From the NCBI GenBank assembly GCA_021157815.1, contig JAGGVT010000059.1, positions 1 to 60,348 of the forward strand: a stretch of DNA of 60,348 bases, given 5' to 3'. Within the stretch, counting starts at the first letter, position 1; each line of letters starts with the position of its first letter. Position numbers and translations under genes: made by a program. Below are positions 25,409 to 29,547 of the stretch, one piece after another. The notes under the pieces were generated by a model, which was given only the letters and a program-made list of their open reading frames with translations, ran no database searches and was not told the origin of the DNA. This DNA comes from a bacterium. Lineage in GTDB: Bacteria; JAJVIF01; JAGGVT01.

Positions 25409-26461
25409 ATGTATCGATGCTTTTTCAAAACAACTCTGATTATCGCGCTTGTTATTGCCGCGACAATGTCAGGCTGCATCAAGCCGGATGACATTCTCTC
25501 AAAAGGGCTTGAGGGTGTTGATGATCAAATAATTTTTGCAACAAGCGCTCCGGACAACATCTTGATTTATTCAGTCGGACAGGCGAGAATGCTTCACACA
25601 CTTCCCGCCGATGAACGGCTTAACGACATGGTCGTAAACAAAGCCGGGACAATCGCCTATGCTGTCACAAAAAACGGCTGGCTGAATGTATTTAATCTGC
25701 ATCGAGGCGACAGGATAGCTCGAGTAAGGATTGGAACAATCCTTCAGTCTGTCGCGCTTAGTCCGGATGAAGAGTTTATCGCTGTCGGGGTTGGTTCGGA
25801 AGAGGATTACAACGCTCACGATATTTCATTCCGTTCAACAAGCAACGTATATCAGGAAATCCTACGTCTGCCGCTCAGGGGGGATATTCAGGACCTGGTT
25901 TCGAATCCGAATCCGGCATATCCTGAACTTTATATTGTAAACACAAACGCGGACAAGGTGAGGGTTTTTAATTTTAACTCGATGGAGCTCACGGGGATAA
26001 TCACACTTGGGGGAAGCCCATCCACTTTAAGCGTAACTCCTGACGGCAGGAAAGTTTACGCGACACTGAACGCCCGCAACGCTGTGCTTGTGATCGATTC
26101 ACAGACACGCGAGATAATAGCCCGCCATGAACTCACCGGAGCCGCGCCTCATTATGTCGCTTTCTCGAAGGATGGCTCCACTGCGGCGGTAACCGACCGT
26201 GAAATGTTCAGGATTTATTTCATCGATAATTCAGCGGATGAAATCATCGGATATAAGTTATTTCCAGTGAATCTTGCGTACACTATTTATCCTGAAATAA
26301 TCGCCTTCTCAGGGAATGCTGATTATCTTTATGTTATTTCCGGGCATAACTCAAACCTGAGAGTGATTGATATCCGAACGATGGAGATGGTGCAGAGTTA
26401 CAGCCTTTCCAAAGCGCCGGGCGCCATGCATGTTATCTGGGGAAGCGGAAAAGAGGCGTAG
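25409..26461 (+). CDS. YVTN beta-propeller lipoprotein
   Basis: A 350-residue lipoprotein (signal peptide with lipobox MSGC, Cys23). The mature part holds repeated blades with the YVTN pattern: PSTLSVTPDGRKVYATL, NAVLVIDSQTREI and APHYVAFSKDGSTAAV. Such propellers are secreted or periplasmic and often accompany cytochromes or metal-handling proteins. It follows rsmI by 24 bp (GGGAAG site) and is the first of three lipoprotein genes ending with the predicted selenocysteine tetrahaem protein, so a shared role at the cell envelope is likely. That grouping is inference. Confidence 0.85.
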   Translation: MYRCFFKTTLIIALVIAATMSGCIKPDDILSKGLEGVDDQIIFATSAPDNILIYSVGQARMLHTLPADERLNDMVVNKAGTIAYAVTKNGWLNVFNLHRGDRIARVRIGTILQSVALSPDEEFIAVGVGSEEDYNAHDISFRSTSNVYQEILRLPLRGDIQDLVSNPNPAYPELYIVNTNADKVRVFNFNSMELTGIITLGGSPSTLSVTPDGRKVYATLNARNAVLVIDSQTREIIARHELTGAAPHYVAFSKDGSTAAVTDREMFRIYFIDNSADEIIGYKLFPVNLAYTIYPEIIAFSGNADYLYVISGHNSNLRVIDIRTMEMVQSYSLSKAPGAMHVIWGSGKEA

Positions 26462-26542: not shown

Positions 26543-27475
26543 ATGGCAGTGAAGGGGATTGTAAATATCCTTTTTATATCCCTTGCTTTGGTTGTTATGT
26601 CAGGATGCGCTCCGCAGGGCGGGATTTCATCATCAACAAGGATTCTCATAGGCGGAAACATTCAGGGGCAGATTTACCCGTCACAGGAGAAAAGAGGCTT
26701 TGTGCAAGGCACGTTAGCCAGGCTTGGCGGAATGATAGACCATATGAACAAGGAAAAGCCCAAGCCTGTCGCATTGATACAGGCTGGAAATTCCATATCC
26801 ATTGAAAACGAAAAGCAGGCAAAAACAGCGGAACTTCTTGCCAAAGGAGCGCAAATCATAGGGTTTGGAGCTAATCTGGCATCTACATACGAATTCAACG
26901 ATACACCTGAGTATGCGAAAAAACGAGCGAAAACAGGCTGGAAACAGGTAGTTAGCAATGTTAAACCACTGGATGGCGTTGAACCGCCAATAGCATTTAA
27001 GGAATATCACAGGGCTGATCCTGGAAACGGTCGATTTGTTTATTTTCTGAATATAATAGCAAAAAATTACTACAACGATTCTTCGCTTCTAAATGAACAC
27101 TACGAATGGATTGAACCTACTGAGGTATTAATACAGTTTGTGAGGACAATACGCTCAAACGATATTCTCGTCGTTTATTACCAGACTGATGCTCCAAATA
27201 CTTTAAACACGCTTTATAGTATTCAGGAATCGGAAATTATCACCCTTCTGGTTCTGAATGACAAAGTCTTTCAGAGAGTGGACAAAAGAAGGCCGGATAA
27301 GCTCGAGGGTGTGAACATCGCAAGCGTGCCGAAAAATGTATCAACGTTGAATTCAGTGGATATCTGGTGGGATCCCCTGCGGGAAGAATGGAAGATTGAG
27401 ACTCAATCGTTTATGGCAGGATTAAATTACAAGGAAAACAAGGAAATTAAAAAACTGCTTGAGAAAAAGAAATAA
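26543..27475 (+). CDS. UshA-like lipoprotein without the CGU motif
   Basis: A 310-residue lipoprotein (lipobox MSGC, Cys22; GAGGT site). After the signal it reads ILIGGNIQGQIYP and then TLARLGGMIDHM and LIQAGNSIS, the order of the N-terminal part of metallophosphatase/UshA-like proteins (GD-x-H/Q-G, then LGG-x-A, then D/G-G-N). The usual metal ligands are largely lost, so catalysis is doubtful. It aligns with the next gene over the same segment, but where that protein has C-G-TGA-H this one has no cysteine. It is probably a degenerate paralogue acting with it. Confidence 0.65.
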   Translation: MAVKGIVNILFISLALVVMSGCAPQGGISSSTRILIGGNIQGQIYPSQEKRGFVQGTLARLGGMIDHMNKEKPKPVALIQAGNSISIENEKQAKTAELLAKGAQIIGFGANLASTYEFNDTPEYAKKRAKTGWKQVVSNVKPLDGVEPPIAFKEYHRADPGNGRFVYFLNIIAKNYYNDSSLLNEHYEWIEPTEVLIQFVRTIRSNDILVVYYQTDAPNTLNTLYSIQESEIITLLVLNDKVFQRVDKRRPDKLEGVNIASVPKNVSTLNSVDIWWDPLREEWKIETQSFMAGLNYKENKEIKKLLEKKK

Positions 27476-27570: not shown

Positions 27571-29547
27571 ATGAGAAGAACTGGATTGGTTGTTTTATTT
27601 GGCATGCTGTTGTTCCTTGTGGGATGCACAACGGCAGACAGGCCTGTGGAATTCAGATTATTATTAAGCTCGGAATTAAACAACAGGCTTGGGGCATGCG
27701 GATGACATGGTAACGGCAACGGTGGTCTCGCCCGTCGGGCGTGGGTTTATCAGCAATATGAAAAACAGAATGGCTCTCTGCCGTTCCTGTTTGAGCTTGG
27801 CAATACGACATCCAACACATCGGAATATTACACATACACAATGACGCAGATGTATCCAATGCTTAAAACACTGGGCGTTCAAGCCAACCTGCTTCAGGAT
27901 TTCGAGATGAGGGACAAGGAGGAGGGATTTCTGAAACGTTTGAACATGGATATTCCCAACGTTCTTTCAAATGTTTATCCCAAGGACCCATCCACGGATT
28001 TCAACAAGCTGCAGCAATTCTATACAACCAGCCTGCCCGGTGGGATTAACTTGTATATCATCAATCTTTTTGATGTAGAGAATGTCAAGAGGTTTAAATC
28101 CATTAATGTGAATTATGAAGCCATTCCGCCAATTGAATTCCTGGAGAGTTTTATCAATCAGATTGACCCGGCGGATGTTCTTATCGCAAGGATAAATATC
28201 AAGGATACCATGAGAATTACCGATGTTCTTGAATCTGACGCCGCAAAGAGAATAGACCTTGTGTTATTGCCACATGGGGTAAGCAAAGACTTTGTAACCT
28301 CAGAAGAGAGAAGTTTGTCGAAGTTGAACACAGGCTGGCGTAAATCGACAATAACTCCGTACCATGAAGCACAGGAAAAGAAGGCAAAAGAAGATCGAAT
28401 AAAGAAATACATGGATGATAAAAAGGCAAAGCTACAGGAGGAAACTGAAAAGGATAATAATGGCGCGAAAGGGAAAAATACATCACTGAAAAATCCAGAT
28501 GACGGTTCAGATGAAATAATAATCCCGGGAAAGAATCCTAACGGTATATTACCTGATTCAACTGATGAAAAGCTTGTAACAGGTGATGAACAGCCTGATT
28601 TGAATCAGGAAGCAAAAGCTAATGTTCCACCTCTACCTGCTGAGTTGACAAACGAGCCAATAAGCCGAGGAAAAGACTCAAAAGGAAAGGAGAAATTATC
28701 AGCGAAAGATGTTGATTTAACTGTGGAATCACGTGAATTCATGGATATTCTAAATGAATATCATGCGGTTCCCGAGCCAAGGTCAGCCGAGTACCTCAGA
28801 GAGATTTATTTCCAGCGCACTATTGATGGGGAATACACAATCAAGGTATCTGATATTCTAATCGACAAGAGATATCCAGAGGATGGGGCAATCAAGGGTC
28901 TGGTTGATGACTGTGAAAAAGTCGTTGCCTTGATGAAAACAAAAGAAAGCGTCAAACGCCAGATTACATACACGGAACGAAAAGTCAGCAGCACAGGTGA
29001 GAATCCGTATGTAGGGCCTCAAACATGCAAAGAATGCCATGAGGAAGCATATGATATATGGGCATCATCAAAACACGCCCACACTCTCGAACTGCTGGAG
29101 AATAGAGGACAACAGGATGATGAACGCTGCCTTAAGTGCCATCTGACAGAATGGACAAAACCGGCATATTATGTGAAGGAATGGACATTCGATAAATTCG
29201 CGCCTGAACTCGGCTGTGAAACATGCCACGGACCCGGCGCCGCGCATGTCAGGATTATTGATTACGCTCTGCAGGGCAATCGCAAAGAATACTGGGACAT
29301 AATCAAAACCGAGAAACCGAATCTGTTCCTGAGAGATTTAAGGGCTGAGGCAAAGACAGTCTGCACACAGTGCCATGACAAGATGAATTCACCCGATTTC
29401 GATTTCATCGAGTACTGGTCGATGATTGAACATCCCAGCCCGGTTTTGGAAGACCCGTTGGACAAGATTATTAAGATACGGAGCAAGAAGCAGAGAAAAG
29501 AAACAGAGAATCTTAGGGAAAAAGCCAAGGAAGCTGATGGGAAGTAA
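27571..29547 (+). CDS. Probable selenoprotein: UshA-like lipoprotein with four haem c motifs
   Basis: If the TGA at 27703-27705 is read as selenocysteine, this is one 658-residue lipoprotein. The signal peptide has lipobox LVGC (Cys18). The UshA-like segment then reads LGACG-Sec-HGNGNGGLARRA with Sec45, in the place where related proteins have CGC. The frame continues unbroken upstream and downstream of the TGA with conserved family signatures on both sides. A GC hairpin 23-36 bases beyond it suits a bacterial SECIS. A charged linker (about 260-385) leads to a cytochrome part with CKECH (486-490), CLKCH (520-524), CETCH (549-553) and CTQCH (598-602), as in c554-type proteins. It is probably periplasmic and redox-active. 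No sel genes are in the window. The alternative is a nonsense mutation with re-start at 27841. Confidence 0.75.
27703..27741 (+). promoter_or_regulatory. In-frame TGA and candidate bacterial SECIS hairpin
   Basis: After TGA (27703-27705) the mRNA can form CGCCC-GTC-GGGCG at 27729-27741, a perfect 5-bp GC stem whose loop begins with G about 28 bases from the TGA. Further C-G and T-G pairs are possible beyond a mismatch. Bacterial SECIS elements have an apical loop with an early G roughly 16-37 bases after the codon. The fit is by eye. Confidence 0.55.

Follow-up and report, generated by a model that had tools for sequence, protein, structure and literature searches.

UshA-like proteins with a CxU motif form a family (COG0737) for which the Global Ocean Sampling set yielded 76 selenoproteins and 92 Cys homologues (PMC2398784). 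UshA-like (seleno)proteins have been catalogued since 2008 and are included in reviews of 2022 and 2026 (PMC9312934, PMC13188914), and the passages found in the literature searched give the family no function and no biochemistry. An earlier sequence-only reading of the locus described here had suggested an unfamiliar redox role, which is in keeping with those passages, but the UshA-like CxU family itself was already on record.

The locus lies in a 60,348-nucleotide stretch of bacterial DNA (the window, meaning the whole stretch that was analyzed) from a draft genome of 221 contigs, 90.9% complete with 0.34% contamination. We consider it very likely that an in-frame TGA in the gene at 27571..29547 (forward strand, as are all window features given below) is a selenocysteine (Sec) codon, and that the product is a divergent relative of the UshA-like (seleno)proteins.

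An in-frame TGA and its homologous sites

The 27571..29547 frame reads MRRTGLVVLFGMLLFLVGC...LGACG-TGA-HGNGNGGLARRAW...TAA and, with Sec at residue 45, encodes 658 residues that match NCBIfam NF041198, UshA-like (seleno)protein, at E 1.7e-30. Its sole internal stop in 658 codons is the TGA of codon 45 (27703-27705). On the 5′ side of this codon lies a lipoprotein signal peptide (27571..27627, the opening MRRTGLVVLFGMLLFLVGC) with the lipobox LVGC (Cys19), and on the 3′ side a 613-residue tail with four CXXCH motifs; lipobox and haem motifs are all in one frame, so that the signal peptide and the UshA-like plus cytochrome part are separated by a single TGA, as the sequence-only reading had it. 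The Cys43-Gly44-Sec45 motif (27697..27705) aligns with the CGC or CGU of 109 other homologous sites, and its surroundings read ACGUHGNGNGGLARRA, that is, CG[U/C] followed by GG(L)ARR as in NF041198.

Because TGA terminates other genes of the window (5 of 26 long ORFs), the genetic code is standard here, and reassignment does not account for the codon. Looking across the window for TGA readthrough into a long downstream frame, we obtained three hits, two of them antisense to longer ORFs, leaving 27703-27705 as the only other. Since ordinary ORF calling cuts the gene at the TGA, yielding a 568-residue product that has neither signal peptide nor redox motif, a selenoprotein of this kind is easily missed.

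Homologues were collected by an NF041198 search in 385 genomes and by a search of the genome collection with an alignment of family members, using the site pattern C-G-[U/C]-x(3-9)-G-G, in rare cases with S at position 1 or 2. Among 110 distinct homologous sites from diverse bacteria, the position of residue 45 is TGA in 54 and Cys in 56, a count in which the pattern itself demanded C or U, so that other residues were not measured; 9 of 80 named loci fell outside the pattern and were left out. Cys43 and position 45 are likewise invariant in a 29-sequence alignment (A2) selected by the same C-or-U pattern. A paralogue in the same genome (contig C182; VCGCKEKLGGLARR; 270 bits to NF041198) carries VCGC, and genomes of the same class carry Cys forms. 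The alignment of residue 45 that the sequence-only reading had proposed returned Cys or Sec, with C or U required by the pattern; that reading had expected a redox CGC at the place of Cys-Gly-TGA.

These data bear on the reading of the TGA as a true stop, under which the locus would be a pseudogene, or the ORF that begins downstream at ATG 27841 would be a gene of its own. TGA does serve as a stop in this genome, and an ATG-started ORF of 568 residues does exist downstream of it. A stop would, however, sever the in-frame C-G-U/C...GGLARR motif, which spans the TGA, from its signal peptide, and it would have to be reconciled with TGA at the same codon in 53 other sites, with 658 codons that hold no other stop, and with the Sec machinery encoded in the genome (see below). 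We regard a true stop as very improbable.

In a quick tree, at least 8 changes of the Sec/Cys label are needed (3 of them forced by starred branches) vs. 33 in shuffles, from which we conclude that the label is clustered yet repeatedly exchanged. The window protein sits on this tree at the end of a branch of 3.0 changes per column and has no reliable placement. When used directly to query the genome collection, it found no relative because it is too divergent, whereas an alignment of homologues succeeded; plasmid records contained no relative.

Some homologues differ in architecture or in the motif. Locus L086 (genome G139, contig C62) is a UshA-like Sec homologue that has no haem motifs and reads PSGUGC at the site, Ser replacing the first Cys of CGU and a Cys following two residues past the Sec. 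In five Cys forms of roughly 900-1000 residues (L145, L150, L152, L183, and L184, from Latescibacterota, Gemmatimonadota, and others), the four haem motifs are followed by a long C-terminal extension. L160, from a record titled Thermoplasmata archaeon, is a Sec homologue of bacterial type that closely resembles deltaproteobacterial ones, which probably reflects misbinning or a recent transfer.

SECIS-like signal and selenocysteine machinery

The GC hairpin that the sequence-only reading had placed about 28 bases past the TGA exists as CGCCC-GUC-GGGCG (27729..27741), a 5-bp stem whose loop follows the TGA after 28 nt, at +29. Its third-position pairs are conserved across Sec homologues, although its folding energy alone is unexceptional: the 63 nt from the TGA fold no better than shuffles (z +0.81), a result that we counted against the Sec reading. 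The minimum-energy fold includes a stem-loop in another register, GGUG-GUCU-CGCC (27721..27732), whose GUCU loop begins at the 20th nucleotide after the UGA. Both registers are seen family-wide, with a GUCU loop at about the 20th nucleotide or a 3-nt loop at about the 29th, and the window sequence is able to form both. As candidates for a bacterial SECIS element just downstream of the UGA, there are a GUCU loop at +20 and a hairpin with its loop at +29, conserved in Sec genes and depleted in Cys genes.

Because the coding of GGLARRA itself favors such hairpins, we limited the comparison of Sec and Cys genes to synonymous choices. Among genes encoding GGL, the GGTCT that gives the GGUCU loop is found in 25 of 46 Sec vs. 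1 of 23 Cys genes (p 4e-5), and among those encoding GGLA[R/K] in 22 of 38 vs. 1 of 12 (p 0.003); in ARR-encoding genes that do not have GGTCT, both third-third pairs are present in 20/20 Sec vs. 3/9 Cys genes (p 2e-4), all of these p values being optimistically small since the sequences are related. The window has GGUCU, and the third-third pairs of the ARR-encoding Sec genes are of several pair types. A raw tally of hairpins (Sec 45/48 vs. Cys 8/26) was dropped as the main argument, as most Cys genes encoding GGxARR form hairpins too, and coding partly confounds the SECIS comparison for the same reason. The RNAalifold consensus on the Sec set has 3 pairs only, because the two registers are mixed. 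With the window left out of its training set, a covariance model, which captures coding conservation as well, matched the 60 kb at one place only, 27706-27751 (14.9 bits, E 0.024). From these comparisons, it is well supported that the synonymous sites downstream of the TGA carry a SECIS-like signal, and the putative stem-loop overlapping the GGLARRA codons would assist decoding.

The same signal bears on the possibility that a Cys codon, TGC or TGT, was misread as TGA through a sequencing or assembly error. The assembly is a draft in 221 contigs and about half of the homologues have Cys, but such an error must have hit by chance the one codon that is TGA in 53 other sites, and it must have done so next to the Sec-specific GGUCU loop, carried by only 1 of 56 Cys sites. 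We consider such an error very improbable.

Of the machinery for which the sequence-only reading had proposed that the genome be checked, selA (525 bits) with selB (346 bits) adjoining is present on contig C211 and a tRNA-Sec on contig C190 (Rfam 65.5 bits; ARAGORN tRNA-SeC, anticodon tca), but a search of the assembly, 90.9% complete, turned up no selD, its best match being ThiL (274.5 bits to thiL). Three genomes of the same class gave no selA match and no selD above the cut-off. We counted against the Sec reading both the failure to find selD in the assembly and the lack of selA, and of selD above the cut-off, in these three genomes; on the simplest reading, selD would sit in the missing 9% of the genome. 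Contigs C27, C211, C190, and C37 are alike in composition (4-mer correlation with the window 0.94-0.96), which argues against foreign contigs. With machinery and homologues supporting the selenocysteine originally proposed, and selD alone not found, the TGA at codon 45 almost certainly encodes Sec. Judging from sequence, Sec would actually be inserted into the window protein, with SelA, SelB, and tRNA-Sec of the organism itself decoding UGA codon 45.

The genome encodes another predicted selenoprotein on contig C37 (C37:15104-15853), where a formate dehydrogenase alpha-like gene has a TGA at its Sec site within ARIUHSSTVASLAATFGRGAMTS, which we take to be the canonical FdhA Sec context. This gene, too, counts in favor of Sec at codon 45. 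We call the gene FdhA-like because its matches fall under the FdhA cut-off.

Fold, neighboring genes, and proposed redox role

The description of the protein as UshA-like plus tetrahaem was right. A degenerate UshA/5′-nucleotidase (metallophosphatase) fold domain, with approximate boundaries, spans 27646..28370 and is followed by a long charged linker (28370..28740), the gap region of alignment A2, which is longer than in homologues and of low predicted confidence (pLDDT mostly <50 for residues about 245-404). The tetrahaem cytochrome c domain (29008..29376; Pfam Cytochrome_C554, 2.8e-11) has its CXXCH motifs at 29026, 29128, 29215, and 29362, corresponding to residues 486, 520, 549, and 598. 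Searched against the PDB, the family profile matched 5′-nucleotidases (E 1.5e-40) and SoxB (2e-22) with its N-domain, and cytochrome c554 with its C-domain. The AlphaFold2 model of the window protein has a mean pLDDT of 60.6, the N-domain being better, and Foldseek with this model again found 5′-nucleotidases (5h7w, E 2.1e-9; for a canonical Sec homologue, E 2e-22).

Across the family, most residues aligned with NDxH and GNHE have been replaced, and the window protein goes further in this respect: it reads SSELNN, FELGNT, and LQDFEM at the nucleotidase motifs and does not have the metal ligands and catalytic His of UshA/5′-nucleotidase enzymes. The CGU motif directly follows the former NDxH strand, beside the former metal site. 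These positions bear on whether the protein, with Sec inserted, could be an active phosphoesterase or thiosulfohydrolase of the UshA or SoxB type that uses CGU as a metal ligand. Its N-domain has the fold of a 5′-nucleotidase, and for two homologues, L089 and the paralogue on contig C182, the top NCBIfam hit is SoxB once the UshA-like (seleno)protein models are set aside. The replacement of the NDxH- and GNHE-aligned residues (SSELNN and LQDFEM in the window) speaks against hydrolysis, as does the fusion to four haem motifs, for which a hydrolase has no need, and we consider an active hydrolase unlikely.

Immediately upstream, at 26543..27475, lies a UshA-like lipoprotein paralogue that has SQE in place of CGU and no haem domain (blastp to the Sec protein, E 1.9e-9, 25% over 211 aa). 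Having lost the CGU motif, it is possibly a non-catalytic partner. Tandem UshA-like genes also occur, for example, on contigs C229, C62, and C106 of genomes G199, G139, and G038, respectively. Further upstream on the same strand, a beta-propeller lipoprotein (25409..26461; NCBIfam TIGR02276 beta-propeller repeat above cut-off) is a possible member of the operon. Elsewhere, a DsbA-like thioredoxin gene lies directly downstream of three Cys-form homologues (from Nitrospinaceae, Nitrospira, and a deltaproteobacterium); the sampled neighbors of Sec-form homologues include no obvious common partner, DsbA being found beside Cys forms only.

In the redox role that we favor over hydrolysis, the product would be a secreted lipoprotein with an N-terminal metallophosphatase fold, a long linker, and a C554-like tetrahaem cytochrome, in which NDxH and GNHE have been replaced and Cys-Gly-Sec stands beside the former metal site. 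The Cys43-Sec45 pair would form a redox center (selenenylsulfide/selenolthiol) that reacts outside the cytoplasm with a thiol (a small molecule or a protein), with sulfur, or with a similar substrate, and the four haems would carry electrons to or from other cytochromes. Supported by the four haem motifs and by the DsbA-like genes downstream of the three Cys-form homologues, such coupling of a Cys43-Sec45 center to haem electron transfer, with a thiol- or sulfur-like substrate, seems to us a reasonably likely mechanism. We suggest more tentatively that a metallophosphatase-fold site turned into a Cys-Sec redox site and wired to a tetrahaem domain may constitute a kind of oxidoreductase acting outside the cytoplasm that has yet to be described. 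It might, for instance, reduce disulfides, sulfur, or chalcogen oxyanions or oxidize thiols, and the neighboring paralogue that has no CGU motif might work with it, as might the beta-propeller lipoprotein.

Comparison with described families

The closest described family is NF041198, with which the window protein shares a UshA-like N-domain, a cytochrome c region, and Sec/Cys at the same CxU place. Its score (106.1 bits) is under the cut-off of 275, however, and the match covers mostly the cytochrome part (residues 424-612 on profile positions 350-518), the N-terminal stretch across the TGA contributing 18 bits; the linker is also longer and the N-domain more degenerate. We therefore file the protein beside NF041198 rather than inside it, the score cut-off having failed and the other tested features fitting. 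Family 2 of the UshA-like (seleno)proteins (NF049981, CxxU) has a UshA-like fold and Sec near the N-terminus as well, but its Sec motif is another one and the window match is very weak (15 bits, cut-off 140). The multiheme c-type cytochrome (seleno)protein ExtKL (NF040886) is also a Sec-containing multihaem cytochrome family, but the haem region alone matches it, weakly (20.8 bits, cut-off 250), and no UshA-like domain is included in the match. MccSep (PDB 9wt8/9wt9), a multihaem cytochrome of known structure that is described as a selenoprotein, with a U325A mutant, resembles the family profile in the haem part only (E 7.5e-7). SoxB thiosulfohydrolase and the UshA/CD73 5′-nucleotidases share the N-domain fold, but here the nucleotidase motifs have been lost, and CGU (CGC in Cys homologues) and a cytochrome are present.

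The window thus provides a very divergent example of the family, from a class whose three other searched genomes gave no selA match. With its one-codon split between Sec and Cys, its spread over many phyla, and a SECIS signal at synonymous sites, the family lends itself well to the study of Cys-Sec exchange and of the advantage that selenium brings to an active site wired to haems. The window protein is a divergent addition to the catalogued UshA-like (seleno)protein family and not categorically new; what is new in it is its divergence, its long linker, and its motif-less neighbor, and for the family as a whole the two-register SECIS pattern is new.
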